Shown here: in pieces, positions 2,384 through 51,622 of the stretch
How the letters are laid out: each line of letters starts with the position of its first letter
Position numbering within the stretch: position 1 is the first letter of the stretch
From: Firmicutes bacterium AM41-11
GTDB taxonomy: Bacteria; Bacillota_I; Bacilli_A; Erysipelotrichales; Erysipelotrichaceae
NCBI GenBank assembly: GCA_003480165.1
Contig: QUIQ01000004.1
Coordinates: forward strand, 71,756 to 135,755
Direction: 5' to 3'
Length of the DNA stretch: 64,000 bases
Made by a program: the position numbers and the translations under genes
The notes under the pieces: model-generated
Seen by the model: the letters and a program-made list of their open reading frames with translations, nothing else
The model's database searches: none
What the model was told of the DNA's origin: nothing

Positions 2384-2394
2384 GGAGGATGAAT

Positions 2395-4058: not shown

Positions 4059-4060
4059 AT

Positions 4061-4720
4061 ATGTCAAAATTTCAAAGTTTTAAAAATGGATTATTGAAAG
4101 AAAATCCAGTATTCTCTTTATTCTTAGGTATTTGTTCGACTTTAGCAATCACTACAACAGTAGATAATGCGATTGGTATGGGTATTGCGGTAATTGTTGT
4201 CTTGATTATGTCAAACGTAATTATTTCTTTATTACGTAATATCATTCCAGATGAAGTACATATTCCGGTATATATCGTTATTATTGCGACATTGGTTAAA
4301 ATTGTTCAAATGTTGATTGCAGCCTATGCGCCTGCATTAAATACCAGTCTTGGTGTATTTATTCCATTGATCGTTGTTAACTGTATTATCTTAGGTCGTG
4401 CCGAAGCTTATGCGTGCAACCATAATCCTATGGATGCTGCATTAGATGGTTTAGGTATGGGTTGTGGATATACATTAGCTGTATTATCTATGAGTTTTAT
4501 TCGTGAAGTAATCTCTACGGGAGGCTTTAAAGTTTCTAACCCATTTAATACAAGCCAGGTTTTCTTGAATGTACATATTATCCCAAGTAATTTTACTATC
4601 AGCATGTTCTCTTCAGCTGTAGGTGCTTTCTTAACTTTCGCTATGTTGGCAGCCTTTGTTGGATGGTATAAAGATCGTGCTGCGAAAAAAGAAGCAGAAG
4701 CTGCTAAGGAGGGAAAATAG
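4061..4720 (+). CDS. rnfE: Rnf complex subunit RnfE
   Basis: RnfE is a polytopic membrane protein homologous to NqrD and RnfA. Together RnfA and RnfE form the membrane core that holds an intramembrane iron centre. The 219 residues show about six hydrophobic helices. The conserved segments INVNCIILGRAEA-like (here VVNCIILGRAEAYA) and DGLGMGCGYT supply the expected cysteines. A charged Lys/Glu-rich tail follows. It sits between rnfG and rnfA with minimal spacing. Confidence 0.95.
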   Translation: MSKFQSFKNGLLKENPVFSLFLGICSTLAITTTVDNAIGMGIAVIVVLIMSNVIISLLRNIIPDEVHIPVYIVIIATLVKIVQMLIAAYAPALNTSLGVFIPLIVVNCIILGRAEAYACNHNPMDAALDGLGMGCGYTLAVLSMSFIREVISTGGFKVSNPFNTSQVFLNVHIIPSNFTISMFSSAVGAFLTFAMLAAFVGWYKDRAAKKEAEAAKEGK

Positions 4721-4723
4721 TTT

Positions 4724-5299
4724 ATGTCTGAATTATTTGGCTTATTATTTACCAGCTTAATTGTTAATAACGTTATCTTAACCCAGTTCTTAGGTATGTG
4801 CCCATTCATGGGTGTTTCGAAAAAACGTACTAGTGCATTAGGTATGGGTGTTGCCGTTGTCTTTGTTATCGTTGCCGCATCTATTATTACATTTGGTTTA
4901 TATTATCTTGTCCTTGTTCCTTTGAAATTGGAATTTATGGATTTGATTACCTTTATTCTAGTTATCGCGTCTTTGGTACAATTAACGGAAATGTTTATTA
5001 AAAAGACAAGTCCTGCTCTATATAAGAGTTTAGGTGTTTATCTTCCTTTGATTACTACAAACTGCGTTGTATTAAATGTATGTTTAGTAAATATTCAAAA
5101 TGGATATGATTTTGCGCACATGATTATGTATTCTGTTGGTACACCAATGGGATTTGCCCTTGTTCTTTATATTTTCTCTACAATTCGTGAACGTTTGGAA
5201 TTAAGCGATGTTCCAGAATTCTTTAAGGGAAATCCAATTGCCTTGGTTGTAGCAGCTATTATGTCTATGGCCTTTACTGCCTTTGCGGGAGTTATTTAA
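4724..5299 (+). CDS. rnfA: Rnf complex subunit RnfA
   Basis: RnfA is the second homologous membrane subunit (191 residues, about six helices) and pairs with RnfE. Conserved features are NNVILTQFLGMCPFMGVS near the N-terminus and TTNCVVLN in mid-protein; each supplies a cysteine of the predicted intramembrane Fe site. The start is preceded by AAGGAGGG at the end of rnfE. Its TAA overlaps the ATG of the next small gene (TAATG). Confidence 0.95.
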   Translation: MSELFGLLFTSLIVNNVILTQFLGMCPFMGVSKKRTSALGMGVAVVFVIVAASIITFGLYYLVLVPLKLEFMDLITFILVIASLVQLTEMFIKKTSPALYKSLGVYLPLITTNCVVLNVCLVNIQNGYDFAHMIMYSVGTPMGFALVLYIFSTIRERLELSDVPEFFKGNPIALVVAAIMSMAFTAFAGVI

Positions 5300-5475
5300 T
5301 GTTTCGAATTCTTGCAGCTATACTGTTTGTTGGCGCATTGATTGGCATTTATATTTGGGCTTATTTAAATAACAAAAAAACCCCTGTTCCAAAAGGGTGT
5401 GAAAATTTAAAAACAGACTGTGATGGATGTAAACTGGTTTCTTGCTCTTTACATCCAGATCACGATAAAAAGTAG
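5299..5475 (+). CDS. small Cys-rich membrane protein inside the rnf operon
   Basis: A 58-residue ORF whose ATG overlaps the rnfA stop; its own stop lies inside the rnfB ribosome binding site, so it is locked into the operon. Residues 2-22 form one membrane helix (FRILAAILFVGALIGIYIWAY). After KKTPVPKG come four cysteines in the order C-x6-C-x2-C-x4-C and a His/Lys-rich tail. I do not recognise a named family with certainty. The layout (one helix plus a short four-Cys tail) resembles NqrM, a maturation factor for the iron site of Na+-NQR, and FeoB-associated Cys-rich proteins. A role in loading iron into RnfA/RnfE is inference. Confidence 0.75.
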   Translation: MFRILAAILFVGALIGIYIWAYLNNKKTPVPKGCENLKTDCDGCKLVSCSLHPDHDKK

Positions 5476-5485
5476 GAGGAATACA

Positions 5486-5791
5486 ATGATTGCAGCAATC
5501 GTAATGATGCTTGTTCTTGGTGGTCTTCTTGGTTTGGGATTAGGAATTGCTGATTCTAAATTAAAGGTTGAAGTGGATGAACGAGTTGAACATGTAACGG
5601 GCATGCTTCCTGGTTATAACTGTGGAGGTTGTGGTTACCCTGGTTGTTCTGGATTTGCAGAAGGCATGGTTTCTGGAGAAACAAATCAATTCTTATGTAA
5701 ACCAACAAAACCAGATCAAAAAGCTAAAATTATCCAATATTTAAAAGAAACCCCAGGTCCTGATGGTAGTACCATCGATATTAAAGGGTAA
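5486..5791 (+). CDS. rnfB: short RnfB-like protein (N-terminal helix and first Fe-S domain only)
   Basis: RnfB normally receives electrons from ferredoxin. Here it has 101 residues: a membrane helix (2-22), then NCGGCGYPGCSGFAEGM and FLC, which is the C-x2-C-x4-C-x(n)-C cluster motif typical of RnfB. The ferredoxin-like 2[4Fe-4S] domains that usually follow are absent. The gene ends cleanly at TAA, and a terminator and a convergent gene come next, so there is no missing piece downstream. The ATG at 5486 follows AGGAGGA; an upstream in-frame extension lacks such a site and overlaps the small Cys-rich gene. Confidence 0.9.
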   Translation: MIAAIVMMLVLGGLLGLGLGIADSKLKVEVDERVEHVTGMLPGYNCGGCGYPGCSGFAEGMVSGETNQFLCKPTKPDQKAKIIQYLKETPGPDGSTIDIKG

Positions 5792-8687: not shown

Positions 8688-10328
8688 ATGAAAGTAAAAG
8701 TTAGTGATTTAAAAAACGCATTATTAGGTATTGAATCCAATCGACAATTATCTTCTGATATTGTTGAAGGAGCATTGGTTGAAGCTTTATCGAAAGCGTA
8801 TCGTAAACACGTAAATATTCCTGATGGATATGTACATGTTGCGATTGAAAATGGTCACATTCATATCTATCCACAACGTATGGTGGTAGAAGAAGTCGAA
8901 GATGATGCTTTGGAATTCTCTCTAGAAGATGCCCAAAAATACAAAAAAGACGCTAAGATTGGTGATTTAGTTGATGAAGACGAAGTAGATTTTACAGAAT
9001 TTGACCGTGCAGATGTTAACTTGGCTAAAAATGTCATGAAACAAAAAATTCGTGAAGCGGAAAAACAATTGGTTTACGAAGAATATTGTGACAAAGTCGA
9101 TGATATGGTTTTAGGTACAGTTGAAACCGTAGAAGACAAATTCGTTATCGTTAATATTGGAAAAACTTTAGCAATGATGCGTCGTGTAGACCAAATTCCT
9201 ACTGAACACTATTATGAAGGCCAAAACTTATTAGTTGTGATTCGGGAAGTAAATAAAGAAACTCGTGGAGCTCAAGTTTTAGTTAGTCGTTCAACACCTG
9301 TTTTTGTTCGTCGTTTATTTGAACGTGAAGTTCCAGAAATCTATCAAGGAACTATTGAAATTAAAGCCATTGCACGTGAAGCTGGGGAACGTTGTAAAAT
9401 TGCGGTTTATTCACACAATGAAAACATTGATCCAATTGGGGCATGTATTGGTCCAAGAGGGCAACGTGTCCAAACCATTATTAATGAATTAAATGGTGAA
9501 AAAATTGATATTTTTGAATGGTCGGATAACATCAGTGAATTGATTCAAAATGCATTGAGTCCAAGTGAATCAGTTGCCGTATTTAAGAATCCTAATGTCG
9601 ATGATGGATTAGTAGTTGTTGTTCCTGACAATCAACTTTCTTTAGCCATTGGTAAACGTGGTAAAAATGCGCGTTTAGCGGTTCGTTTATCTAACCATAA
9701 GATTGATATTAAATCCGTATCAGAAATGGAAGAAAATGGTGTGGATTACATGGCACTTTCCCAACAGATGCAAGATGAATACAATCAGAAGAAAGCCGAA
9801 GAACGTGCTTATAAACAACAATTGCGTATTGAAGAGTTGAAGAATCAAGATTCTGATCTGGAATCAGTTGAATTACCAGATTTTGAATATGATGATGAGC
9901 CAGAAGAAGCAGAAATCATTTTAACGGATTCAGAAAGCGAAGAAGCTGTAGTACAAGAAGAAGCACCTGCCCAAGAAGAGGTTGTCATTGAGCAACCACA
10001 AAAAGAAGAAGATGACATGGAAATTGCTGCGCGTATTGCCAAAGAGGCTCGTAGTAAAGAGCGTGCTTCTGAAGTAAAAGAGTATACTTCTAAATTCGAA
10101 AACTTTGCCGATGCTTCTCACAAAGAAGAAGTGAAACCAGTTAAGAAAAAGGTTGAAGAACCTAAGAAGAAAGAAGAACCAAAAGAAGAAAAGAAACCGC
10201 AATTTGAACAAATGAAGCCAATTTATTCGGATGAAGAATTAGCGGAAATTGAAGCGGAAGAAGAATACGAAGACAATCGTTGGGATGATGATGTAGATTA
10301 CGAAGAGTATGATGAATACTACGATTAG
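8688..10328 (+). CDS. nusA: Transcription factor NusA with a long charged C-terminal tail
   Basis: NusA binds RNA polymerase and controls pausing, termination and antitermination. An N-terminal polymerase-binding domain (about 1-125), an S1 domain (about 135-205) and two KH domains (about 210-350, with IGACIGPRGQRVQ and LAIGKRGKNARLA) are all recognisable. Beyond about residue 355 there is an extra 190-residue region rich in Glu, Asp and Lys, with KKKVEEPKKKEEPKEEKK-like stretches and an acidic DDDVDYEEYDEYYD end. Most Firmicute NusA proteins stop near 350-400 residues, so the tail is a lineage-specific, probably disordered extension. Confidence 0.95.
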   Translation: MKVKVSDLKNALLGIESNRQLSSDIVEGALVEALSKAYRKHVNIPDGYVHVAIENGHIHIYPQRMVVEEVEDDALEFSLEDAQKYKKDAKIGDLVDEDEVDFTEFDRADVNLAKNVMKQKIREAEKQLVYEEYCDKVDDMVLGTVETVEDKFVIVNIGKTLAMMRRVDQIPTEHYYEGQNLLVVIREVNKETRGAQVLVSRSTPVFVRRLFEREVPEIYQGTIEIKAIAREAGERCKIAVYSHNENIDPIGACIGPRGQRVQTIINELNGEKIDIFEWSDNISELIQNALSPSESVAVFKNPNVDDGLVVVVPDNQLSLAIGKRGKNARLAVRLSNHKIDIKSVSEMEENGVDYMALSQQMQDEYNQKKAEERAYKQQLRIEELKNQDSDLESVELPDFEYDDEPEEAEIILTDSESEEAVVQEEAPAQEEVVIEQPQKEEDDMEIAARIAKEARSKERASEVKEYTSKFENFADASHKEEVKPVKKKVEEPKKKEEPKEEKKPQFEQMKPIYSDEELAEIEAEEEYEDNRWDDDVDYEEYDEYYD

Positions 10329-10336
10329 GAGGATCT

Positions 10337-10594
10337 ATGCGTAAAATTCCTATGAGAAAATGTGTGGTTACACAAGAAAGATTTCCAAAAAAAGAATTGA
10401 TTCGTGTGGTACGTACACCAGAAAAGACCATTGAAGTTGATCCTACCGGAAAAATGAATGGACATGGTGCATATGTTTCAAAGCGGAAAGAGACAATTTC
10501 TTTAGCTAAGAATAATCATGCGTTAGATCGAGCTTTGGAAATGGAAATTCCTGAAGAAGTGTATACCAAACTTTTGGAGTATGTAGATGAATAA
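10337..10594 (+). CDS. ylxR: YlxR/RnpM family RNA-binding protein
   Basis: An 85-residue basic protein of the YlxR family (recently named RnpM), reported to bind RNase P RNA. The family motif is seen as MRKCVVTQERFPKKELIRVVR near the N-terminus (given in part) and GHGAYVSK in mid-protein. It lies between nusA and ylxQ as in most Firmicutes. Its end overlaps the next start by eight bases. Confidence 0.9.
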   Translation: MRKIPMRKCVVTQERFPKKELIRVVRTPEKTIEVDPTGKMNGHGAYVSKRKETISLAKNNHALDRALEMEIPEEVYTKLLEYVDE

Positions 10595-10871
10595 TACGAT
10601 TTCCTTATTACAGATTGCCTGGAAAGCAGGTAAGGTTGTTTTTGGAGATCGTTTGATTCCTGCTATTCAAAAGAATGAAGTTTTTTTGGTTATCATGTCC
10701 AGTTCTTGTGGCAATAACCGGAAAAAGAAATTAAAAGATAAGTGTGCGTTTTATCAGATTCCTTTGATGGAAATAGATGCTTTGCGATTCAATTGCATTT
10801 CATCGCGTTCCGTGAATTCATTTGGAATCACGGATAAGCATTTTGTAGAAGCGATAGAGAAGAAAGGATAG
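10587..10871 (+). CDS. ylxQ: YlxQ-like L7Ae/L30e family RNA-binding protein
   Basis: A 94-residue protein of the L7Ae fold. The motif WKAGKVVFGDRLIPAIQK near the N-terminus is typical of the YlxQ/YbxF group, which can bind kink-turn RNA. Position between ylxR and infB supports the call. The usual G-x-D-x-S segments are weak, so the exact RNA target is unknown. Confidence 0.85.
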   Translation: MNNTISLLQIAWKAGKVVFGDRLIPAIQKNEVFLVIMSSSCGNNRKKKLKDKCAFYQIPLMEIDALRFNCISSRSVNSFGITDKHFVEAIEKKG

Positions 10872-10877
10872 GTGGCT

Positions 10878-12752
10878 ATGGCATATAACAATAACAACAG
10901 TAAAAAACCGCAACGTAAAAAGAAACCGTCAAAACATAACAAGGGTAGAGGTAATCAGCGGAACAAACAACCTGTGCGTCCTGTCAAAAAGGATGAGGTT
11001 AAAGAAATTACGTATCATGATACTCTAACCGTTGGTCAGTTAGCGGAATTGATGCATAAAAATAGTTCGGAAATTATTAAGTTCTTATTCCTTTTAGGTA
11101 ATATGTCTACAATTAATACCGTATTATCAGATGATGATATTGAATTGATTTGTGCAGAATTCAATGTCGAAGTGCATAAAGAAGTTATTATTGAAGAAGA
11201 CAATATCGAAGATCAATTGGATAACATTGAAGAAGATGAATCCAAATTAGTTTCACGTCCACCTGTTGTAACGATCATGGGACATGTTGACCATGGTAAA
11301 ACAACATTATTGGATACAATTCGTAATACGAATGTAACGGGAGATGAATTCGGTGGTATTACCCAACATATTGGTGCTTACCAGGTAAATGTTGGTGATC
11401 GTAAGGTTACTTTCTTAGATACGCCAGGTCACGAGGCTTTTACAGCTATGCGTGCGCGTGGAGCACAAGTAACGGATGTCGTTATCATTGTCGTTGCTGC
11501 GGATGATGGTGTTATGCCACAAACCAAAGAAGCCGTTGACCATGCCAAAGCCGCTGGAGTGCCAATTATTGTTGCTGTCAACAAGATTGATAAACCCGGC
11601 GCTAATCCAGATCGTGTAATGAGTGAAATGTCTGAATTAGGTGTTATGCCAGAAGAATGGGGTGGCGATACGATTTTCCAACCTGTTTCCGCAAAAACTG
11701 GAGAAGGTGTGCAAGACTTATTGGAAACTATTCTATTAGTTTCGGATATGCAAGAATTAAAAGCCAATCCTGATGCCATGGCTAGTGGTACCGTTATTGA
11801 AGCTAAATTGGATAAAGGTCGTGGACCAGTAGCTACATTGTTAGTGCAACGTGGTTCGCTTCATTCTGGCGATAGTGTTGTTGTTGGTACTTCTTATGGT
11901 CGAGTTCGTCGTATGACGAACGATAAAGGAAAAGAAATCAAATGTGCGACACCAAGTATGCCAGTTGAAATTATTGGTTTGAATGAGGTTCCTCGTGCAA
12001 GTGATGTCTTTATGACTTATTCGACATATAAACAAGCACAATCTATTGCACAATCACGTGAAGAAAAACAAATTGAAAAAGAACGTAACAGTACATCTGC
12101 TATGTCACTAGAAGACTTAGCTCGTAAAATTAATGAAGAAGACATGAAAGAAATTAATGTCATCATCAAAGCCGATGTGCAAGGTTCTGCGGAGGCTTTA
12201 AAGGCTTCTATGGAAAAATTGGATGTAGATACTGTTCGTATTAATGTTATCCGTTCGACGGTTGGTACGATTAGTGAATCGGATATCTTATTAGCTAGTG
12301 CTTCGAATGCCATTATTTATGGATTTAATATTCGACCTACAGCTGCTGTACGTAAGAAAGCCGAAGAAGAAAATGTTGAAATTCGTCTACACAACATTAT
12401 CTATAAAGCTTTGGAAGAATTAGAAGCAGCGATGAAAGGTCTTCTTGCACCAGTTTATCAAGAAGTGGTTATTGGACAAGCTGAAGTTCGTGAAACATAT
12501 AAGGCTAGTAAAGTTGGTACGATTGCCGGATGTATGGTTACTGATGGGGTTGCGAAACGTGATGCCAAAGTTCGTGTCATTCGTGATGGTATTGTGATCT
12601 ATGAAGGGGTTCTTGGTTCTTTACAACGTTTCAAGGATTCTGTTAAAGAAGTACAATCGGGCTATGAATGTGGTTTAACTGTCGAAAACTATAATGATAT
12701 CAAAGTTGGAGATTTGATTGAATTATATGAAGACCAGGAAGTAGAACAATAA
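10878..12752 (+). CDS. infB: Translation initiation factor IF-2
   Basis: IF-2 is the GTPase that brings fMet-tRNA to the 30S subunit and drives subunit joining. At 624 residues it is a short form, with only a brief Lys/Asn-rich N-terminal region. The G1 motif GHVDHGKT is at residues 135-142, and DTPGHEAF (G3) and NKID (G4) follow. The C-terminal half carries the beta-barrel domains that bind fMet-tRNA. A GTG six bases upstream is a possible earlier start, but the ATG at 10878 has better spacing from AAAGGA. Confidence 0.96.
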
Positions 12753-18562: not shown

Positions 18563-19786
18563 ATGGAAACAAAAGAAGTTGTTATTGTAAGTGCTTGCCG
18601 TACTGCAATTGGTAAATTCTGCGGAGAATTTAAAAATGTATCTGCACGTGATTTAGCAATCGAAGTCGGAAAAGAAGCCATCAAACGTGCTGGTGTAGAT
18701 GCCAAGGACGTTGATGAAATTGTTATGGGTGAAGTTTACCAAGGTATGCAAGGTTCTTTACCTGCTCGTCAAGTTTCAATGCGTATTGGAATGAGCGTAG
18801 AATCAAATGCAGTTGTAGTTAACCAAAACTGTGCATCTGGTATGCGTGCATTGGAAATCGCTTGTAACGACATCCAATTAGGAAAAACAGATATTGGATT
18901 AGTTGTTGGAACAGAAAACATGACGCAAGTTCCTTTCTTACTACCAAAAGCTCGTATGGGATATCGTATGGGAAGTATTCCTGAAGAAGGTGCTGCTCCT
19001 ATGTATGATGCTTTATTGCATGATGCTTTATACGATGAATTAAGTGGTGGACACATGGGTTCAACAGCTGATAATGTTGCGAAATTGTACAACATTACAC
19101 GTGAAGAATGTGATGAATTAGCTGTTATGTCTCATAAACGTGCTTGTGCTGCTACGGATGCAGGTAAATTTAAAGATGAAATCATTCCTATCGTAGAACA
19201 TACACGTAAAGGTGATATTGTTCATGATACAGATGAACATATGATTCGTGACTGCAACTTAGAAACTATTTCTAAATTACGTACAGTATTCAACAAAGAT
19301 GGTGTTACAACAGCTGCCAATGCTTCTGGTATTAATGATGCCGCTGCTGCTGTTATCGTAATGTCTTTGGATAAAGCAAAAGAATTAGGTATTAAACCTA
19401 TGGCTAAAATGCTTTATATGTGTGGTAAAGGTGTTGAACCTAAATATATGGGTCTTGGACCTGCAGTAGCAATCCCTGAATGCTTGGATCGTGCTGGTGT
19501 TAAATTTGATGATGTAGATTACTGGGAAGTAAACGAAGCGTTCGCTGCACAATTTATTGGTGTTGAACGTAAGTTAAAAGAAGATCATGGTTACATCGTT
19601 GATCGTAACAAAACGAACTTAAATGGTTCTGGTATCTCTTTAGGTCACCCAGTTGGATGTAGTGCATTACGTATCATCGTTACAATGTTATATGAAATGC
19701 AAAGACAAGATGCAAAAATTGGTTGTGCATCACTTTGTGTTGGTGGTGGACCTGCTATGGCTTCACTTTGGACACGTGAATTTTAA
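18563..19786 (+). CDS. thl: Acetyl-CoA C-acetyltransferase (thiolase)
   Basis: Condenses two acetyl-CoA to acetoacetyl-CoA, the first step of butyrate formation. The acyl-accepting Cys is C90 in NQNCASGM; H362 in GHPVGCSA and C392 in CVGGGPAM complete the active site. At 407 residues it is slightly longer than the common 392-395. TGGAGG precedes the ATG. Like the following genes, it uses a narrow codon set (GCT, GGT, GTT, CGT), which suggests high expression. A dedicated promoter separates it from the upstream kinase. Confidence 0.95.
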   Translation: METKEVVIVSACRTAIGKFCGEFKNVSARDLAIEVGKEAIKRAGVDAKDVDEIVMGEVYQGMQGSLPARQVSMRIGMSVESNAVVVNQNCASGMRALEIACNDIQLGKTDIGLVVGTENMTQVPFLLPKARMGYRMGSIPEEGAAPMYDALLHDALYDELSGGHMGSTADNVAKLYNITREECDELAVMSHKRACAATDAGKFKDEIIPIVEHTRKGDIVHDTDEHMIRDCNLETISKLRTVFNKDGVTTAANASGINDAAAAVIVMSLDKAKELGIKPMAKMLYMCGKGVEPKYMGLGPAVAIPECLDRAGVKFDDVDYWEVNEAFAAQFIGVERKLKEDHGYIVDRNKTNLNGSGISLGHPVGCSALRIIVTMLYEMQRQDAKIGCASLCVGGGPAMASLWTREF

Positions 19787-19829
19787 GCCTTTGTGAAAAA
19801 AAAATTGTGAAAAAAGATTAAACGTTAAC

Positions 19830-19881
19830 TTGTAAAAACTTTCACAATATATTTGACGGTTGGTTTATTTGTGTATAGAAT
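19830..19881 (+). promoter_or_regulatory. bcd promoter with an upstream Rex-like operator
   Basis: TTGTAAAAACTTTCACAA (19830-19847) is a palindrome with one mismatch and fits the Rex operator form TTGTGAAA-N2-TTTCACAA. Five bases on comes -35 TTGACG (19853-19858), a 17-base spacer and -10 TAGAAT (19876-19881). Two further TTGTGAAA half-sites lie just upstream (19791 and 19805), in direct orientation. Confidence 0.7.
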
Positions 19882-19952
19882 AACAAATGTATGAATTAGC
19901 ATTTCATGCATGAACTTGAAGTTGAATAAGAAGGAAAGGAGAACTTCAATTT

Positions 19953-21092
19953 ATGGATTTCAATTTTACACCACAACAAGAAATGATGCAGACTTTGTTC
20001 AGAGAAGTTGCGAATGGTGAAGTAAAAGAAAACGCAGCTGATGTTGATGAACAAGAAAGATTTCCAAAAGAATCTGTAGAAGTAATGCGTCAAGCAAAAA
20101 TGCTAGGTATTCCATATTCTCGCGAATATGGTGGAGCTGGTGCTGATTACTTAAGCTATGTATTAGCTGTAGAAGAATTAGCAAAAACATGTGCTACAAC
20201 ATCGGTTGTATTAAGTGCACACACTTCTTTGTGTACTTGGCCAATCAGTGCATTTGGTAGCGAAGAAATTAAAAACAAATATTTACCTGACTTATGTTCT
20301 GGTAAAAAATTAGGAGCATTTGGTTTAACTGAACCTAATGCAGGTACTGATGCTGCTGGTCAACAAACGACTGCAGTATTAGAAGGTGACCATTACGTAT
20401 TAAATGGTACTAAGATCTTTATTACAAATGCTGGAGAAGCTGATATCTATGTTATCTTTGCGATGACAGATAAGACAAAAGGTACTCATGGTATCTCTGC
20501 ATTCGTAGTTGAAAAAGGATGGGAAGGATTCACTTTCGGTCTTCATGAAAAGAAATTAGGTATTCGTGGTTCAGCTACTCGTGAATTAATTTTCAATAAT
20601 GTTAAAGTACCTAAGGAAAACTTATTAGGAAAAGAAGGAAAAGGTTTCAGCATTGCCATGCAAACACTTGATGGTGGACGTATTGGTATCGCAGCACAAG
20701 CTGTAGGTATTGCTCAAGGTGCTCTTGATGAAGCTGTTCCTTATGTAAAACAACGTAAACAATTTGGTCGTCCAATTGCTAAGTTCCAAAACACTCAATT
20801 CCAATTAGCTGACATGCAAACAAAAGTTGATGCTGCTCGTTTATTGGTTTATAGAGCTGCTATGGCTAAAGAAGAAGGTAAACCTTATACAGTATTAGCT
20901 GCAGAAGCAAAATTATTTGCTGCTGAAACAGCTATGGAAGTTACAACGAAAGCCATCCAATTATTAGGTGGATATGGTTATACTCGTGACTTACCTGTAG
21001 AAAGAATGTTTAGAGATGCTAAGATCACTGAAATCTACGAAGGTACTTCAGAAGTACAACGTATGGTAATCTCAGGATCTATGTTGCGATAA
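19953..21092 (+). CDS. bcd: Butyryl-CoA dehydrogenase (short-chain acyl-CoA dehydrogenase)
   Basis: Reduces crotonyl-CoA to butyryl-CoA with electrons from EtfAB; contains FAD. The acyl-CoA dehydrogenase signatures AFGLTEPNAGTDA and QLLGGYGYTRDLPVERMFRD (in part) are clear. The catalytic Glu is E363 in IYEGTSEVQRM. The 379 residues are standard. It leads the bcd-etfB-etfA-hbd block behind its own promoter with a leader of about 65 bases. Specificity for C4 rests on the gene context. Confidence 0.95.
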   Translation: MDFNFTPQQEMMQTLFREVANGEVKENAADVDEQERFPKESVEVMRQAKMLGIPYSREYGGAGADYLSYVLAVEELAKTCATTSVVLSAHTSLCTWPISAFGSEEIKNKYLPDLCSGKKLGAFGLTEPNAGTDAAGQQTTAVLEGDHYVLNGTKIFITNAGEADIYVIFAMTDKTKGTHGISAFVVEKGWEGFTFGLHEKKLGIRGSATRELIFNNVKVPKENLLGKEGKGFSIAMQTLDGGRIGIAAQAVGIAQGALDEAVPYVKQRKQFGRPIAKFQNTQFQLADMQTKVDAARLLVYRAAMAKEEGKPYTVLAAEAKLFAAETAMEVTTKAIQLLGGYGYTRDLPVERMFRDAKITEIYEGTSEVQRMVISGSMLR

Positions 21093-21112
21093 GAAAGGAT
21101 TGAGGAAAGAAT

Positions 21113-21907
21113 ATGAAAGTCGTTGTTCTAGAAAAACAAGTTCCCGATTCAACTGAGATCACAGTTGACAAAAAAACTGGTGCGTTAGTTCGTGACGGTG
21201 TTCCTGCAATTACTAACCCAGATGATTTAGCTGGTTTGGAAGCTGCATTGGAGTTAAAAGATAAGAACCCTGATACAGAAGTTGTTGTAATGACAATGGG
21301 ATTACCTAAAGCAAGCGAAATGTTAAAACAAGGTATTGCTATGGGTGCTGACAAAGGTGTTTTATTAACAGACCGTGTATTAGGTGGATCTGATACATGT
21401 GCTACTAGTATCGCCTTAGCTGCTGCTTTGAAAAAAGTTGGATTTGACTTAGTTATCGCTGGTCGTCAAGCTATCGATGGTGATACAGCTCAAGTTGGTC
21501 CTCAAACAGCAGAACGTTTGGATATCCCTCAAATTACATATGTTGATGAAATCATCGATGTAAAAGAAGATTCAATCACAGTTAAGAGATCATTAGAAGA
21601 TGTTGAACAAATCGTAACTGCTAAGTTACCTTGTGTTATCACAACATTATCTGAAATGAACACACCTCGTTATATGCAATGTGATAACATTGTTGATTTG
21701 TGTAAAGAAGACAAGATTGAAGTATTAACAAATGCAGAATTAGGTATTGATCCAGCTACAGTTGGATTCAAAGGTTCACCTACATCTGTAAAAACTACTT
21801 TCACAAAAGATGTTACTGATGAAACAGAAACATTTACATTGTCTGAGCAGGAAACTGCAGATATGATTGCTAAAACTTTGAAAGAAAAGCAAATCATTAC
21901 GAAGTAG
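21113..21907 (+). CDS. etfB: Electron transfer flavoprotein subunit beta
   Basis: The smaller subunit of the Bcd partner flavoprotein. MKVVVLEKQVPD at the N-terminus and the VIAGRQAIDGDTAQVGPQ segment are family signatures. The 264 residues match the EtfB proteins found beside bcd in anaerobic butyrate producers, where Bcd/EtfAB complexes bifurcate electrons from NADH to crotonyl-CoA and ferredoxin. Whether this one bifurcates is inferred from context. Confidence 0.94.
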   Translation: MKVVVLEKQVPDSTEITVDKKTGALVRDGVPAITNPDDLAGLEAALELKDKNPDTEVVVMTMGLPKASEMLKQGIAMGADKGVLLTDRVLGGSDTCATSIALAAALKKVGFDLVIAGRQAIDGDTAQVGPQTAERLDIPQITYVDEIIDVKEDSITVKRSLEDVEQIVTAKLPCVITTLSEMNTPRYMQCDNIVDLCKEDKIEVLTNAELGIDPATVGFKGSPTSVKTTFTKDVTDETETFTLSEQETADMIAKTLKEKQIITK

Positions 21908-21920
21908 GAGGGAAAGAGAA

Positions 21921-22952
21921 ATGGCTAGATTTGAAGAATATAAAGATATCTTCGTTTTCGTTGAACAAGAAAATGGAAATATAGCAGAAGTAAGTTATGA
22001 ACTTATTTCTGAAGCAAGAAAACTGGTTGCTTCTATTCCTGAATTCGGATACAAAGTAGTTGGTGTATTGCTTGGAGAAAATGTAAAAGACAAAGCCCAA
22101 GAAGTAATCGCTCATGGTGCTGACAAAGTAATCGTTGTAGATGATGCTTTGTTAAAAGATTATTCAACTCAATTTTATGCTGATGCATTAACACAAGTTG
22201 TAAATGCTTATAAACCAGATGCAATGTTAACTGGTGCCACTCCATTAGGACGTGACTTAGCACCACGTGTTGCTGCTCGTTTAAATGTTGGTTTAACTGC
22301 TGATGCAACTAAGATTGAAGTCGATTTAGATTACGCAAAAGAAAATGGTGAATCATTGTTAGACGTTACTCGTCCTACATTCGGTGGTAACTTATTCGGT
22401 ACTATCGTTTGTAAAGACACTCGTCCACAAATGGCTACTATTCGACCAAAAGTATTTGAATTAGCTCCTACTGATGAAAGTCGTACTGGAGAAGTTGAAA
22501 CTTTTGAACCAAAATGGACAACTACAGATCCTCAAGTATTTGTAGAAAAAGTTATTGAAAAAGTAAAAGCTGATGTAGATATCACAAAAGCTGACATCTT
22601 AGTTGGTGCTGGACGTGGAGCTGAAAACTGTTTAGACGTTGTTCAAAAAGTTGCTGACGAATTAGGTGGAGTTGTATGTTGTACACGTGCCGTTGTAGAA
22701 GACGGATACATGGACAAAGCTCGCCAAGTTGGTCAAACTGGTAAAACTGTTCGTCCTTCACTTTATATCGCTTGTGGTATTTCAGGAGCTGTTCAACACT
22801 GTGCTGGTATGGATAAATCAGATTTGATTATCTCTATTAACCGTGACCCTCAAGCTGAAATCTTCACAATCTCTAACATGGGATTTGTAGGCGATGTACA
22901 AAAAGTATTACCTTTATTAGTTGAATCAATTAAAGCTGCTAAAGCTGAATAA
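21921..22952 (+). CDS. etfA: Electron transfer flavoprotein subunit alpha
   Basis: The large Etf subunit, which binds FAD through its C-terminal domain: [36 protein letters not shown] (in part), and [11 protein letters not shown]. At 343 residues it is of normal length and lacks an N-terminal ferredoxin domain. It sits 13 bases after etfB with a GGAGGG site. With EtfB it passes electrons to Bcd. Confidence 0.94.
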
Positions 22953-22971
22953 TAAACAAGGAGAATTGAAC

Positions 22972-23811
22972 ATGAGTAAAATTGGTGTTGTTGGTGCCGG
23001 AACAATGGGGCAAGGAATTGCTCAAGCTTTCGCACAAGCAGGAAATCAAGTGACTGTATGTGACATTAAAATTGAATGGGCACAAGGTGGAATTGATAAA
23101 ATTGGTGCTAAATTAGACAAATTAGTATCACGTGGAAAAGTTGAAGAAGCTGCTGCTAACGAAGTTAAAGGAAACTTAAAAGCAGGTGAATATGCTGATT
23201 TAGCTGATGCAGATTACATTGTTGAAGCTGTATTGGAAAAAGTTGAAGTTAAACAAGAATTGTTCAAAACATTAGATGAAATCTGTAAAGATAGCACAAT
23301 CTTCTGTACAAATACTTCTTCTTTATCTGTTACGGAAATCGCAAACGGAATTAAACACGAAGTAATTGGTATGCATTTCTTTAACCCAGCTGATCGTATG
23401 AAATTAATCGAAGTAATCCGTGGTGGAGCTACTAAAGATGAAACAAACGCAAACATTGTTGAGTTATCAAAATCTATCGGAAAAACTCCTGTAGAAGTTA
23501 ATGAAGCTCCTGGATTTGTTGTTAACCGTATTTTGGTTCCTATGATCAATGAAGCTGCATTCATCCTTCAAGAAGGTGTTGCTTCAGCTGAAGACATTGA
23601 TACGGCAATGAAATTAGGTGCTAACCATCCTATGGGACCTCTTGCTTTAGGTGACTTTATAGGATTAGACATCGTATTAGCTGTTATGAATGTTCTTTAC
23701 ACTGAAACTGGTGATTCTAAATACCGTCCATGTACTTTATTAAAGAAAATGGTTCGTGCTGGTAAATTAGGTTGTAAGACTGGTGTAGGTTTCTACGATT
23801 ATTCTAAATAA
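22972..23811 (+). CDS. hbd: 3-hydroxybutyryl-CoA dehydrogenase
   Basis: Reduces acetoacetyl-CoA to 3-hydroxybutyryl-CoA with NAD(P)H. The Rossmann motif [20 protein letters not shown] opens the protein (residues 4-23). The catalytic His lies in [17 protein letters not shown], and the C-terminal domain has [11 protein letters not shown]. The 279 residues are usual. The ATG at 22972 follows AAGGAG. A strong hairpin with a T tract follows the gene. Confidence 0.95.
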
Positions 23812-23824
23812 GGTTTAGACATCG

Positions 23825-23861
23825 AGAAGTGGAACATTAGAAGTGTTTCACTTCTTTTTTT
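23825..23861 (+). terminator. terminator-like hairpin between hbd and crt
   Basis: A 12-bp stem (AGAAGTGGAACA with TGTTTCACTTCT) around a seven-base loop and seven T. The crt ribosome binding site starts right after the T run, so crt must rely on read-through or processing. Confidence 0.8.
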
Positions 23862-23878
23862 AAAGGAAAGGTAAAACT

Positions 23879-24658
23879 ATGGAAAACGTATTATTAGAAA
23901 AACAAGGACACGTTAGTATTATTACAATTAACCGTCCAAAAGCATTAAACGCTTTAGCTACAGAAGTTCTTAAAGATTTAGAAGCAGTAGTAAAAACAGT
24001 TGAAGCAGATAAAGATACTTATGTTGCTGTTATTACTGGTGCTGGTGATAAATCCTTTGTTGCCGGAGCTGACATTGTCGAAATGAAAGACAAAGACGTT
24101 GCTCAAGCAAAAGAATATTCTGCTTATGGTAACCAAATTTTCAGAGCTATCGAACAATTACATTGTCCAGTTATCGCTGCTGTAAATGGATTTGCTTTAG
24201 GTGGCGGATGTGAATTGTCTCTATCTTGTGATATCCGTATTGCTAGTGAAAATGCTGTATTCGGACAACCAGAAGTTGGATTAGGTATTACTCCAGGATT
24301 TGGTGGTACACAACGTTTAGCTCGTACAGTTGGTGTTGGTTTTGCTAAAGAAATGATTTACACTGCTCGTAATATTAAAGCAGATAAGGCTTTAGCTATT
24401 GGTTTAGTTAATAAAGTCGTTCCTCAAGAAGAATTAATGCCTACAGTTTTAAAGATGGCAAATGGTATTGCGAAGAATGCTCCAATTGCTGTTGCTCAAT
24501 CTAAGAAGGCAATCAACAATGGTTTACAATTAGACATCGATGGTGGTGTGGCAGAAGAAGTAAAAGACTTCGCTGAATGCTTCAATACCGAAGATCAAAA
24601 ATATGGTATGGAATGCTTTGTAAACCGTGTAAAAGAAAAAGAATTTAAAAATAAATAA
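23879..24658 (+). CDS. crt: Enoyl-CoA hydratase (crotonase)
   Basis: Dehydrates 3-hydroxybutyryl-CoA to crotonyl-CoA. The crotonase fold is clear: the oxyanion-hole segments KSFVAGADI and GFALGGGCELSL, and catalytic glutamates E112 (GGGCE) and E132 (GQPEVGLG). The 259 residues are typical. It lies between two intrinsic terminator-like hairpins with no promoter space upstream, so its level is probably set by read-through from hbd. Confidence 0.95.
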   Translation: MENVLLEKQGHVSIITINRPKALNALATEVLKDLEAVVKTVEADKDTYVAVITGAGDKSFVAGADIVEMKDKDVAQAKEYSAYGNQIFRAIEQLHCPVIAAVNGFALGGGCELSLSCDIRIASENAVFGQPEVGLGITPGFGGTQRLARTVGVGFAKEMIYTARNIKADKALAIGLVNKVVPQEELMPTVLKMANGIAKNAPIAVAQSKKAINNGLQLDIDGGVAEEVKDFAECFNTEDQKYGMECFVNRVKEKEFKNK

Positions 24659-24664
24659 CATTGA

Positions 24665-24696
24665 AAAATCGTCTTGGTTTTCCAGGACGATTTTTT
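24665..24696 (+). terminator. terminator-like hairpin between crt and the CoA-transferase
   Basis: A 13-bp stem, AAAATCGTCTTGG with CCAGGACGATTTT, around TTTT, with a six-T run. The next gene's AAAGGATG site begins three bases later. Confidence 0.85.
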
Positions 24697-24712
24697 AGAA
24701 AGGATGATACAT

Positions 24713-26065
24713 ATGGATTATTCAAAAGAATATCAATCAAAATTATGTTCTGCGCAAGAAGCTGTGGCAGATATCAAAAGTGGTGATTGGGTAGATTATG
24801 GTTTCTGTACCGGTACACCTGTTGTTTTAGATGCTGCTTTAGCGCAAAGAATGCCTTCCTTAGAGAATGTGAATATTCGTGGAGCTATTCTTATGCAAGT
24901 GCCAGAAATCTTTAAAATCGAATCTCCAGAAAAACACTTTACTTGGAATTCTTGGCATATGTCTGGTATCGAAAGACGTGCCATTAAACAAGGTTTTGTT
25001 TACTATAGTCCTATTCGTTTCTCAGAACTTCCACGCTACTATCGTGAAAATGTTGCTGACATCGATGTAGCTTTATTCCAAGTTGCTCCAATGGATCAAT
25101 TTGGCTATTTTAACTTTGGTCCAAATGCGACATATATGGCTGATATGTGTACGCGTGCTAAGAAAATTGTTGTCGAAGTGAATGAAAATATGCCACGTAC
25201 TTTAGGTGGTTTCAGTGATTCTATCCATATTTCTCAAGTGGACTGCATCGTTGAAGGAAACAATGATCCAATTAATGAAATGCCTGCAGGTGGTCCAGCT
25301 ACTGAAGTTGATCAAAAGGTAGCCGAATTAATTGTAAATGAAATTCCTGATGGCGCTTGTTTACAATTAGGTATTGGTGGAATGCCAAATGCGGTTGGTT
25401 CTTTAATCGCAAAATCGGATTTAAAACATTTAGGTATTCATACTGAAATGTATGTTGATGCTTTTGTTGATATCGCAAAGGCTGGTAAAATTGATGGATC
25501 GCATAAAAACTTTGATAAGGGTCGTCAAACATTTGCCTTTGGTGCAGGTACAAAGAAATTATATGATTACATCAATGATAACCCAGAATGTATGTCAGCT
25601 CCGGTTGATTATGTAAACGATATTCATCGTATTTCTTGTTTAGATAATTTCATCTCTATTAATAATACGGTTGATATTGATTTGTTTGGTCAAGTTAGTG
25701 CGGAAACCAGTGGTATTAAACAAATCAGTGGTGCTGGTGGACAATTAGACTTTGTCATGGGTGCATATTTATCGAAGGGTGGTAAGAGCTTTATTTGTTG
25801 TTCTTCTACTTTTAAAGGTAAAGATGGTACTGTACAATCGCGTATTTTACCAACCTTACATCCAGGTTCTGCCGTAACCGATACACGTGCAAATACACAT
25901 TATGTTGTTACCGAATATGGAATGGTTAACTTAAAAGGTTTAAGTACTTGGCAAAGAGCGGAAGCACTTATCAGTATTGCTCATCCACAATTCCAACAAC
26001 AATTGATTGATGAAGCCGAAAAGATGCATATCTGGAATGCGGCTAATGCTCATTTAAATTTCTAA
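24713..26065 (+). CDS. but: Butyryl-CoA:acetate CoA-transferase-like protein
   Basis: A family I CoA-transferase of the acetyl-CoA hydrolase/4-hydroxybutyrate CoA-transferase group. The likely catalytic Glu is E245 in [19 protein letters not shown] and the glycine-rich SGAGGQLDF are the group's signatures. The 450 residues match butyryl-CoA:acetate CoA-transferases, and its place after thl-bcd-etf-hbd-crt supports release of butyrate with formation of acetyl-CoA. Other acyl acceptors cannot be excluded. The ATG at 24713 fits AAAGGATG; earlier in-frame ATGs are too close to or before that site. Confidence 0.88.
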
Positions 26066-48044: not shown

Positions 48045-48249
48045 GAAATTAAAATTTCAAGAAGCGATGACGCGCTTAGATGAAATTGTGACAAAACTTT
48101 CTTCCAATGATTTAGATTTAGAAGAAGCGATGGACTTATTTACGGAAGGTTTAAAGCTTTCTACACAATGTGAAAAACAATTAAAAGAATTTGAAACAAA
48201 AATTGAGGCGATTACGCATCAGGAGGCACAAGATGGAACTGCTGAATGA
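48034..48249 (+). CDS. xseB: Exodeoxyribonuclease VII small subunit
   Basis: A 71-residue helical protein with KFQEAMTRLDEIVTKLSSNDLDLEEAM in the N-terminal half (in part) and LFTEGLKLSTQCEKQL, the XseB signature. It starts inside xseA behind AAAGGAGGATG and overlaps ispA at its end. Confidence 0.93.
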   Translation: MPNKKLKFQEAMTRLDEIVTKLSSNDLDLEEAMDLFTEGLKLSTQCEKQLKEFETKIEAITHQEAQDGTAE

Positions 48250-49081
48250 ATTTGAAACATACTTAAAGGAAAAAGTTACGCAAGGTCATAATTCCAAAGT
48301 AAAAGATGCGATGGCATATTCTTTGTTGCAAGGAGGAAAGCGAATTCGTCCGCAACTCTTGTTTGCGACTTTGATGGCGTATGGTCTTGATCCAAAAGTT
48401 GGTTTTCCTTGTGCAGCAGCTATTGAAATGATTCATACTTACTCTTTGATTCATGATGATTTGCCTGCTATGGATGATGATGACTTACGGCGTGGAAAAC
48501 CAAGCTGCCATAAGGCATATGGGGAAGCTTTTGCGATTTTAGCAGGAGATGGTCTTCTAACGCGTGCTTTTGATGTAGTTTTGGAGAGTGATGCTTCAAG
48601 TGATCAAAAAGTGCAATTGGTTCACTTATTAAGTGATTATGCGGGTGTTTATGGCATGGTCTATGGCCAGGAATTAGATTTGTTGGCAGAAGATGATACT
48701 GCTATGACGATTGATAAAGTCTTTGCGATTGATGCTTATAAGACAGCTAAGCTTTTAACGCTTCCTTTATTGTGTGGTGCAACTCTTGCGGATAAAGAAA
48801 AAGATTATCCTCATTGGGAAAAGATTGGCTATGATTTAGGAATTCAATTTCAAATTCAAGATGATATTTTAGATCAAACACAATCCAGTCAAGCTCTGGG
48901 TAAATCAACGAGTGATCAAGAAAATCATAAACAAACCTTTGTTTCTCTATTGGGTTTAGAAAAGGCTAAAGCTGAAGTCGTTCGTTTTGAAAAGGAAATT
49001 CAATCCGAGTTACAATATTTCCAAGGAGATACTTCGTATCTCAAATCGCTGATTCGTTTTATGGTTTATCGTACGTATTGA
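48233..49081 (+). CDS. ispA: Polyprenyl (farnesyl) diphosphate synthase
   Basis: Condenses isopentenyl diphosphate units. The first aspartate-rich motif is DDLPAMDDDDLRRG and the second is QIQDDILD. YSLLQGGKRIRPQL is the IPP-binding region. The 282 residues fit farnesyl- or geranylgeranyl-type chain length. The ATG at 48233 follows AGGAGG. It precedes the Dxs-like gene as in the standard Firmicute order. Confidence 0.93.
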   Translation: MELLNEFETYLKEKVTQGHNSKVKDAMAYSLLQGGKRIRPQLLFATLMAYGLDPKVGFPCAAAIEMIHTYSLIHDDLPAMDDDDLRRGKPSCHKAYGEAFAILAGDGLLTRAFDVVLESDASSDQKVQLVHLLSDYAGVYGMVYGQELDLLAEDDTAMTIDKVFAIDAYKTAKLLTLPLLCGATLADKEKDYPHWEKIGYDLGIQFQIQDDILDQTQSSQALGKSTSDQENHKQTFVSLLGLEKAKAEVVRFEKEIQSELQYFQGDTSYLKSLIRFMVYRTY

Positions 49082-49095
49082 AAAGAGGGATAATT

Positions 49096-50919
49096 ATGCG
49101 TTTATACGACCTTGAGTCTCCGGAACAGATTCAATATTTATCATTGGATCAACTCAAAGAACTTTGTGATGACATTCGTTATTTTTTAATCGATTCACTT
49201 TCGAAAACGGGAGGCCAATTGGCAAGTAATTTAAGTATTGTAGATGCAACGGTTGCGATGCATTACGTTTTTCATGTGCCACAAGATCGTGTTTTATTTG
49301 ATGTAGGATATCAGTGTTTAACGCATAAAATCCTTACGGGACAGTCAACGCGTTTTGCGACATTAAATCGTTTTGAAGGCCTTGATCCTTATTGTGATCC
49401 GCATACGAGTCGTTTTGATACTTGGAAAGCTACGCATGCAGGACAGTCTCTTTCGATTGCCAGTGGTCTAGCCAGTGCTAGAGATTTATCGAATGAAACG
49501 TATCAAGTTCTTTGTGTGATTGGCGATGAAGCCCTTCATGCTGGTGCAAGTTTAGAAGCCCTGGAGCGCATTGGAGAAAGGAAACAGAAAGTTATTTTGA
49601 TTTATAATGATAATCAATACTCTGATGCACAGAATCATCATTTACAACAAGCGCTCTCTAATTTACGTTCGACAAAATTGTTCCGTCAAGCAGGTAATGG
49701 AATGAAGTCCAGTCTGGCTTCGAATCGTTTAGGTAAATCGGTTTTGCATACGTTTGGTTCGGTAAAAGATTCAATTAAAGAATCGGTCTCCAAACAGTCT
49801 TTATTTGATGTTTTGAATTTTCATACAATTGGTCCGATTGATGGACATAATTTAGAAGATTTAATAGCTGCCTTCCAACATGCCAAAGAATGCGAAGGAC
49901 CGGTTGTCGTTCACCTTCATACGCAAAAAGGTTATGGTTCACGCTTTGCGGATCAACAAGCAGATTGGAATCCCCTTGTTCCTTTTAACAAAGAGACTGG
50001 TAAACCACTGTTCTTATTACCTAAGTCGCAAATTACTTGGTCTGAATATGTTGAAATGCTTTTAATTGAGCAGGCAAAAGATGATGGGAAGCTGGTCGTA
50101 ATTAGTTCTAAACAATCGAGTTTTAAACACTTTGCGCATTGTTATCCAAAGCGGACTTTTATCTTTCCTTGCTCGGACCAGCATTGCATAAGTTTTGCGT
50201 GTGGCTTCGCTGCTGAGGGCTATCATCCTTTTGTTGCGATGCCAAGTGCTTATATTTTAAAGAGCTTAGATGCCATTCAAGCCAATCTGGCTTATATGAA
50301 CTTGCCTATTGTTTTAGGTATTTCGGATATTGGTTTAAATGGGCAGGCAGGTTCCATCTTCCATGGAATCGATGATTTGCTACATCTAGAGACAATTCCT
50401 AATTTAGTTTTGGCAACTGCGAAAGATGCTAAGGAATTTAAGGATTTATTCTATACAGCTTTTCAATCTAATCAGCCATTTGTCTTGCGTTATCCAAATC
50501 AAAGTACTTCTTTTGATTTAGAGAGTGAGGCAAATATAATTGAACTTGGATCTTGGTCCCAGTTCCAAATTGGCATGCAGCCAAAGTCGATTGTTTTCTG
50601 TTATGGTGATACAGTTGATCGCTTACTGGCAAAGGCAAAAGAAAATAATTTAGAGATGATCATTGTTAACGCACGTTTCTTTAAACCAATCGATACAAAG
50701 ATCTTACGCGAATTGTTTGCCTTGCATCTACCGATTCATATTTGTGAAACCGACCGCAGGGGTTCTTTAGCCAGGGCCATTGAAGCGGAATTATCGCATT
50801 GTTCTGTTTTAGGTATTGATGACCATTTTGTTGGCCAGGGATCGGTGCGGACTTTGCGAATTTGTGAACATATTTCGATAGAGAGTTTTCTTGAGGATAT
50901 ATTGAGTGATGCAGACTAG
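49096..50919 (+). CDS. Dxs-family (1-deoxy-D-xylulose-5-phosphate synthase-like) protein with altered active site
   Basis: A 607-residue transketolase-fold protein at the usual dxs position (ispA-x-tlyA). Overall it aligns with Dxs from end to end (KILTG, GPIDGH, RYP, C-terminal ICETDRRGS). Many functional residues differ. Against E. coli Dxs (numbers from memory): His49 is Q41, His80 is Y72, the TPP motif GDG is GDE (143-145), Glu370 is D361, Tyr392 is P383, Arg398 is K389, Arg420 is D411, Asp427 is A418, His431 is F422. The second half aligns here without gaps, so these are real substitutions. It may bind TPP weakly or act on something else; DXS activity is doubtful. Confidence 0.85.
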   Translation: MRLYDLESPEQIQYLSLDQLKELCDDIRYFLIDSLSKTGGQLASNLSIVDATVAMHYVFHVPQDRVLFDVGYQCLTHKILTGQSTRFATLNRFEGLDPYCDPHTSRFDTWKATHAGQSLSIASGLASARDLSNETYQVLCVIGDEALHAGASLEALERIGERKQKVILIYNDNQYSDAQNHHLQQALSNLRSTKLFRQAGNGMKSSLASNRLGKSVLHTFGSVKDSIKESVSKQSLFDVLNFHTIGPIDGHNLEDLIAAFQHAKECEGPVVVHLHTQKGYGSRFADQQADWNPLVPFNKETGKPLFLLPKSQITWSEYVEMLLIEQAKDDGKLVVISSKQSSFKHFAHCYPKRTFIFPCSDQHCISFACGFAAEGYHPFVAMPSAYILKSLDAIQANLAYMNLPIVLGISDIGLNGQAGSIFHGIDDLLHLETIPNLVLATAKDAKEFKDLFYTAFQSNQPFVLRYPNQSTSFDLESEANIIELGSWSQFQIGMQPKSIVFCYGDTVDRLLAKAKENNLEMIIVNARFFKPIDTKILRELFALHLPIHICETDRRGSLARAIEAELSHCSVLGIDDHFVGQGSVRTLRICEHISIESFLEDILSDAD

Positions 50920-51622
50920 ATTAGATAAATATTGTAGTTCTTTGTGTGAGTCTCGTACCAAAGCACAAGATTTAATAAAAAAAGGGAATGTTAAGGTTAA
51001 TGGTGTTGTGATAAAAAAAGCCAGTACACTTTTAGAACCGGAAGATAGAGTGGAGATTGTACAGGATGACCCTTATGTTTCTAGAGCGGCTTATAAGTTA
51101 TTAGGTGCGGTAGAAAACTATGCAATCAACTTAAAAGAAAAAACGGTTTTAGATGTAGGGGCGAGCACTGGTGGTTTTACCGATGTTTGTTTACAACATG
51201 GGGCCAAAAAAGTCTATGCACTTGATGTAGGACATTTACAACTTGCTAAACGACTAGACCAAGATAGTCGTGTTATCAAAATGGAAGGGCGAAATGCTCG
51301 CTATATGGAAGCAGACTGGTTTGATACAAAGATTGATTTTCTTTGTATGGATGTAAGCTTTATTCAAGCCAAAACGATTTTAGACCGTGTCTTTGAAGTT
51401 TTAACGATTGATTCGATGGTTATTCTAATTAAGCCGCAATTTGAATGTGGTCCTTCCTTTTTAAATAAACAAGGCATTTTAAAAGATAAAAAACTGGCGA
51501 AAAAAATTGTGAATCAATATGTTCAATATTTATTGGTTCATTATCCGAAAGTTGACTGGATGCCTAGTCCCATACAAGGACGTCATGGTAACCAAGAATT
51601 TGTGCTATATGCTAGAAAGTGA
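50909..51622 (+). CDS. tlyA: TlyA-family rRNA 2'-O-methyltransferase
   Basis: An N-terminal S4 domain (RLDKYCSSLCESRTKAQDLIKKG, in part) joins a FtsJ-like methyltransferase domain with the SAM motif DVGASTGGFTDVCLQ and the K-D-K-E type residues in MDVSF and LIKPQFE. It is the YqxC type of Firmicutes. A GTG at 50906 is an alternative start. It overlaps the Dxs-like gene. Confidence 0.92.
   Translation: MQTRLDKYCSSLCESRTKAQDLIKKGNVKVNGVVIKKASTLLEPEDRVEIVQDDPYVSRAAYKLLGAVENYAINLKEKTVLDVGASTGGFTDVCLQHGAKKVYALDVGHLQLAKRLDQDSRVIKMEGRNARYMEADWFDTKIDFLCMDVSFIQAKTILDRVFEVLTIDSMVILIKPQFECGPSFLNKQGILKDKKLAKKIVNQYVQYLLVHYPKVDWMPSPIQGRHGNQEFVLYARK

Follow-up and report, generated by a model that had tools for sequence, protein, structure and literature searches.

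The window, by which we mean the entire 64,000-nucleotide stretch of Erysipelotrichaceae DNA analyzed here, carries a gene for a full-length homologue of DXP synthase (Dxs) (Table 1). Its open reading frame contains no internal stops, and AAAAGAGGG stands upstream of the ATG at 49096; the ORF listing places the start at a TTG farther upstream, at 49078. The gene order is nusB-like, xseA, xseB, ispA, the dxs-like gene, tlyA, and recN, where ispA and tlyA were named by family search and the other neighbors by a look at their sequences. The listed start of tlyA overlaps the 3' end of the dxs-like gene. This is a Dxs-type neighborhood on both sides: xseB, ispA, and dxs are adjacent in E. coli, and the tlyA and recN side is what we take to be the arrangement in Bacillus. 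The translation of ispA has both aspartate-rich motifs. Its closest named relatives come from Floccifex and Catenisphaera, which are Erysipelotrichaceae, and from Faecalicoccus (58-62% identity), and other relatives reach up to 99%. GC3 and codon use of the dxs-like gene lie inside the range of 17 other genes of the window. Elsewhere in the window, a look at the sequence points to an Rnf-type electron transport gene cluster at 1091-5791 (from ORFs only) and to butyrate-pathway-like genes at 18563-26065 (thiolase, acyl-CoA dehydrogenase, two Etf subunits, hydroxyacyl-CoA dehydrogenase, crotonase, and CoA transferase).

Table 1. Features of the dxs-like locus, in positions of the window; domain limits follow E. 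coli Dxs numbering, and identities are mean pairwise values
Feature	Positions	Strand	Basis
xseB, 71 aa	48034..48249	+	sequence look and position
ispA (farnesyl diphosphate synthase), directly upstream of the dxs-like gene	48230..49081	+	NF045485, 308.3 bits (cut-off 275)
Gene for a Dxs-derived protein without the Dxs active site	49096..50919 (stop included)	+	607 aa; TIGR00204, Pfam, alignment with E. coli Dxs
N-terminal subdomain (E. coli 1-110), most conserved part of the clade	49096..49401	+	identity 66.6% in clade vs 73.6% in active-type sisters
Former TPP/Mg half, domain I (E. coli 111-200)	49402..49668	+	identity 44.2% in clade vs 72.5% in active-type sisters
Former catalytic domain II (E. 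coli 319-492)	50032..50541	+	alignment
Domain III (E. coli 493-620), constraint persists	50542..50916	+	identity 56.5% in clade vs 56.4% in active-type sisters
tlyA	50906..51622	+	TIGR00478, 199.3 bits (cut-off 185.8)

The original prediction had called this gene dxs from its gene order and full-length similarity, and both observations hold. Specifically, matches to the NCBIfam model TIGR00204 span the whole length of the protein, with a score of 418.8 bits that falls under the curated cut-off of 465.95. A Pfam search found PF13292 and PF02779, and no PF02780 at E <= 0.001. Furthermore, the protein is predicted to adopt the full-length Dxs fold with its three domains. The AF2 model of the window protein (pLDDT 87.1, pTM 0.83) falls below a pLDDT of 50 at 175-204 and 216-233, and that of a relative, P0014, reached 86.3 and 0.81. 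The first Foldseek matches of both models were DXS, with TM scores by query length of 0.86 (window) and 0.84 (P0014), and all 50 matches listed for the window model were DXS or DXPS-like. These models lean toward the Dxs fold because both were built on a 52-row alignment with many active-type Dxs.

The active site, in contrast to the predicted fold, has largely been lost. We take E370, H49, H299, Y392, and R398 to be active-site positions of Dxs, with E370 as the catalytic glutamate; to our knowledge, ThDP enzymes as a rule require a glutamate equivalent to E370. The window protein has Asp at this place. When it was aligned with E. coli K-12 Dxs (L005), all nine substitutions that had been reported from the sequence proved real (H49Q, H80Y, G153E, E370D, Y392P, R398K, R420D, D427A, and H431F), and the alignment was indeed free of gaps across those in the second half, the closest gap being three residues at E. 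coli 347-349. Further changes are G121T, S123A, S124G, T125Q, M183Y, I185D, H299N, F395Y, and R478N. In the substrate pocket, positions 49, 299, 392, 420, 427, 431, and 478 thus read Q, N, P, D, A, F, and N instead of H, H, Y, R, D, H, and R. The Mg/TPP motif GDG...N is altered at G153, which is Glu, and keeps the Mg ligands D152 and N181; K284, H372, S393, and D401 are also retained. At the level of motifs, the former TPP/Mg half has GDE for GDG and THAGQ for GHSST with NDN kept, and domain II has SDQH for AEQH, MPSAYILKSLD for IYSTFLQRAYD, and SDIGLNGQAGSIFHG for DRAGIVGADGQTHQG.

Experiments on E. coli Dxs, described in excerpts of a preprint (PMC11908136), indicate how such changes may matter. 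There, R420 and R478 are important for D-GAP binding, D427 and H431 are part of an active-site network, and R420A is described as extremely inefficient. According to the same excerpts, turnover persists when the D427A and H431A variants are assayed in coupled reactions, and our case therefore rests on the whole set of changes and on no single one. Taken together, these changes strongly support the view that the window protein has lost DXS activity.

Erosion on this scale is unusual among Dxs. Of the 111 sites at which 26 reference Dxs show no variation, 39 are substituted and 1 is gapped in the window protein, and six other full-length proteins of its clade (described below) have 40-47 substituted and 7-8 gapped. 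Among 87 held-out Dxs-like proteins, the median was 2 substituted sites and the maximum 25 (P0093), followed by 11 (P0116, P0118, and P0119). P0116 nevertheless retains H49, D152, N181, H299, E370, Y392, F395, R398, R420, D427, and H431. Twelve of the Dxs in this comparison were chosen for a GHSST-like motif, and their retention of GHSST is thus no test. A broader view comes from a protein search in which 2417 of 8000 scored candidates qualified as relatives at E <= 1e-20; the best 120 of these relatives were examined. In the 112 other proteins among these 120, the named positions are retained in 99 to 112, with the exception of R420 (89 R and 23 H); R478 is R in 76 and K in 34. H80, G121, D152, N181, H299, F395, R398, and D427 are invariant in all 112 among the matches listed, and H49, E370, Y392, and H431 are retained in 111, the sole exception each time matching P0093. 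This protein (621 aa, also among the best 120 of 2417) carries H49Y, S123N, E370Q, Y392A, R420H, H431Q, and R478D, and retains GDG, N181, H299, R398, F395, and D427. It groups with P0082 and P0084, and its erosion is therefore independent of that in the window clade. On its residues, P0093 is a second, independent, and milder case, a partly degenerate Dxs.

The losses in the window protein are common to at least eight protein clusters with 572 member sequences among the best 120 of 2417 relatives, examined through their representatives: P0001 (396 members), P0002, P0003, P0004, P0005, P0009, P0014 (125 members), and P0103 (4 members). P0001 is the largest cluster of the clade, and its representative differs from the window protein at one of 607 residues. 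All 72 proteins listed by a profile search at E <= 1e-150 had already come up in the protein search. The original prediction had suggested that a Dxs tree might reveal a clade with conserved substitutions, and the window protein does belong to one: seven full-length members with conserved derived substitutions group together with support of 100/100, within active-type Erysipelotrichaceae-like Dxs. Besides the window protein, which stands for P0001, and E. coli Dxs, the tree took in 40 proteins drawn from the 120 listed; seven of its 42 rows belong to the clade. The stem of the clade measures 0.64 changes per column, and the larger grouping in which it sits also contains eight rows of active type (P0006-P0008, P0010-P0013, and P0015). 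The clade holds as well when the alignment is restricted to E. coli positions 1-110 and 493-620 (100/99), so the lost pocket by itself does not create the grouping. The eighth cluster, P0103 (482 aa), was excluded from the trees and the seven-row counts and included in the position, replacement, and 111-site comparisons. It resembles P0014 for about 460 residues and then reads frame-shifted near its end, which would reflect either a damaged gene or a fault in assembly. We conclude that, as far as their sequences tell, these proteins are a conserved, single-origin set of Dxs homologues without catalytic residues.

Other searches addressed the distribution of the clade. The IspA matches P0125 and P0128 come from contigs of 7521 and 90264 nucleotides, lengths that P0004 and P0003 show too; by this agreement in length alone, ispA may share a contig with the dxs-like gene in these two relatives. 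A scan of genome contigs matched 29 stretches, one of which, from Enterococcus timonensis, encodes a relative, and 109 matching stretches of viral contigs encode none. In genomes around Enterococcus timonensis, no clade Dxs was found among the listed rows (398 of its class, and 199 and 398 of its phylum, which overlap), where the best identities were 38% for Dxs (class search) and 57% for AspRS (398-genome phylum search). The close kin of the window therefore seem to lie outside that group.

Comparison within the clade suggests an order in which function was lost. Invariant sites, which number 112 in this alignment and 111 in the one above because the two alignments of 26 reference Dxs differ, were followed through the seven rows: 30 are changed in all seven, 44 are retained in all seven, and 38 are mixed. 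Sites changed in every row include H49, S123-S124-T125, S186, H299, E370, Y392, F395, R398, D427, and H431. Furthermore, twelve states that are rare in the 26 reference Dxs are fixed in all seven rows (e.g., S47, D50, L75, G116, Y280, Q395, and L398). D152 and N181 are present in the window protein and are both changed in the six other full-length members. These six also lack 18-21 residues around E370, and the ends of the deletion differ among P0002, P0003-P0005, and P0009/P0014. E370 itself is a gap in all six, and three of them show Y, L, and F in a differently built alignment. An acidic residue occupies position 151, one place before D152, in all six, and a shifted metal ligand is thus possible. 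By parsimony, the ancestor would have lost the substrate side first; the cofactor site would have gone afterwards, in two or more separate events, since both branches of the deepest split are affected.

Despite these losses, the proteins retain signs of constraint. Identity and rates were compared among the seven clade rows, eight active-type sisters, and 17 outer Dxs, to which E. coli Dxs was added for the invariant sites. Mean identity in domain II is 45.0% in the clade, compared with 72.4% in the sisters and 63.6% in the outer Dxs. Domain III is as conserved in the clade as in its sisters (Table 1), and reaches 43.7% in the outer Dxs. The difference of differences between domains III and II is 0.26, with a 95% interval of 0.14-0.38 from a site-block bootstrap, which resamples sites and not lineages. 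Four deep representatives show this reversal. Not every pair does: between P0009 and P0014, which form a shallow pair, domain III is less conserved than any other part. Rates vary over sites in the clade (log-likelihood gain of 76 over equal rates). The gamma shape is 1.31, whereas the two active-type sets have 0.55 and 0.56, and constraint in the clade, measured on proteins, is weaker than in active-type Dxs.

The replacements themselves are conservative. In two close clade pairs, pooled from the four that were computed, 14 of 115 were radical (10/59 and 4/56, derived from printed shares), compared with 28-31% expected without selection from the gene's own codons (p of 3.8e-5 or less); the first close pair alone gives p = 0.036 at 28% expected. 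The four clade pairs have radical shares of 17, 7, 15, and 13%. In five other pairs, the shares are 8, 12, 0, 11, and 10%, and a single pair among these five shows just 3 differences. Moreover, the clade has accumulated about 2.8 changes per site in total, yet its seven rows stay at 583-607 aa. Given the conservative replacements, and given that domain II has dropped in conservation whereas domain III matches the level of the active-type sisters, the clade does not look like a case of plain decay. The protein-level tests indicate that it is maintained by selection, mainly in the N-terminal part and domain III, with the reservation that broken copies would be undercounted because the protein database contains predicted proteins only.

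We think it reasonably probable that the window encodes a conserved Dxs pseudoenzyme of single origin, derived from the organism's own Dxs and probably acting as a regulator or scaffold. By sequence, the seven full-length members descend from one ancestor inside an active-type Dxs lineage, and the protein would no longer be able to make DXP. We favor a noncatalytic role because constraint has been retained away from the pocket. The protein would thus work by binding, using domain III and the N-terminal part to regulate or structurally support a partner. This partner would most simply be a true Dxs, another isoprenoid enzyme, or one that uses DXP, encoded elsewhere in the genome. Dxs is a dimer, which one study is said to have found monomerized by pathway products. 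This dimeric state and the interaction of two tomato DXS, described in excerpts of PMC10675008, make pairing with a true Dxs the simplest guess. Because an intact-looking ispA adjoins, the cell presumably still needs IPP. DXP would then be supplied by a second Dxs, unless the pathway has been replaced or lost, and the IPP for IspA would derive from that second Dxs, from mevalonate, or from an external source. Some bacteria are described as lacking dxs or as having partial MEP routes (PMC13001223, in excerpt).

An argument can be made that the gene is a relic in slow decay. Dxs would have become dispensable through a second Dxs, mevalonate, or isoprenoid uptake, and translational coupling between ispA and tlyA would hold the frame open. 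The overlap with tlyA, the relaxed constraint in the clade (gamma shape and radical share), the apparent frameshift in P0103, the stepwise loss of cofactor ligands, and the independent erosion of P0093 are all consistent with this scenario. Coupling, however, fails to explain the conserved residues, including the 44 of 112 sites kept in all seven rows, the sister-like conservation of domain III, and the conservative replacements. Nor does decay sit easily with uniform protein lengths after so many changes per site, and we judge it unlikely, though it deserves weight.

We are more doubtful that the pocket has been rebuilt for another TPP-dependent reaction, at least in the window's lineage, an idea that we regard as improbable. 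The original prediction had raised both a new substrate and a regulatory role. The latter fits the parts where constraint remains and stands as a candidate, while the former is plausible mainly for the window copy with its Mg ligands. This copy also retains K284, an aromatic residue at 395, and an acid at 370; the twelve fixed states and the size of cluster P0001 point the same way. A TPP reaction is nevertheless unlikely as a shared function of the clade, because D152, N181, and E370 are absent at the aligned places in the six other full-length members, and few regions of the clade are less conserved than those facing TPP. It is very improbable that the protein is still a DXP synthase in which other residues have taken over the missing roles. 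Its canonical locus and predicted full-length fold would agree with such a function, as would the turnover by the E. coli D427A and H431A variants in the preprint excerpts (PMC11908136). This reading must contend with the combination of E370D, R420D, R478N, H49Q, H299N, Y392P, and R398K, when R420A alone was extremely inefficient (same excerpts), with the deletion of the E370 loop in the six relatives, and with the score under the TIGR00204 cut-off. A sequencing or assembly artefact was rejected as having practically no chance of being correct, given that P0001, from its own source and representing 396 sequences, is nearly identical to the window protein and that the relatives share the losses.

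The putative pseudoenzyme can be placed among known systems. It resembles DXP synthase (Dxs, EC 2.2.1.7) in full-length homology, predicted fold, and gene neighborhood, and differs in its lost active site and its family score. Plant class 3 DXS (DXS3, e.g., tomato SlDXS3) is another Dxs branch, which fails to replace DXS in E. coli according to excerpts of PMC10675008. Tomato DXS3 stands beside two active DXS, whereas the window gene occupies the dxs locus of a bacterium, and the six full-length relatives of the window protein have the E370 loop deleted. A separate origin from DXS3 is suggested by the placement of the clade among bacterial Dxs, in trees built without DXS3 sequences. The DXPS-like subfamily (NF008968/PRK12315, and presumably PDB 9kpq, titled ThDP-dependent enzyme of DXPS-like subfamily) is, like the window protein, Dxs-related and nonstandard. 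Membership of the window protein in this subfamily was rejected at 292.1 bits, below the cut-off of 510. Unlike the window protein, the Enterococcus homologue L001, assigned to the subfamily by length and divergence only, retains H49, GDG, N181, H299, and E370, and the window protein does not branch with it. L001 (Enterococcus timonensis, 10001-11743, 581 aa) has a retained TPP site with L at 420, N at 427, and V at 478, and therefore possibly another substrate. P0093 is like the window protein in its changes at H49, S123, E370, Y392, R420, H431, and R478, and unlike it in its independent origin and in retaining GDG, H299, R398, F395, and D427. For the terms searched, titles and abstract openings of the open-licence literature yielded no report of an inactive Dxs at the main bacterial locus.

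The MEP pathway is entered and controlled at Dxs, and these organisms would be credited with it if they were annotated by homology or gene order. A conserved but inactive Dxs at the main locus would thus mislead pathway reconstruction. Tentatively, and with rather low confidence, we suggest that Dxs at its home locus was turned once, in the ancestor, into a dedicated noncatalytic subunit, which would have retained the N-terminal part and domain III in order to bind and control a second, true Dxs or an enzyme handling DXP or IPP. If this were true, a dead copy of the first enzyme would set the isoprenoid supply. The graded series of active-type sisters, the window protein with its cofactor ligands, and members without them suggests in what order a TPP enzyme came to lose its site. 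More generally, the clade may serve as a natural experiment on the purpose of the noncatalytic parts of Dxs, domain III above all.
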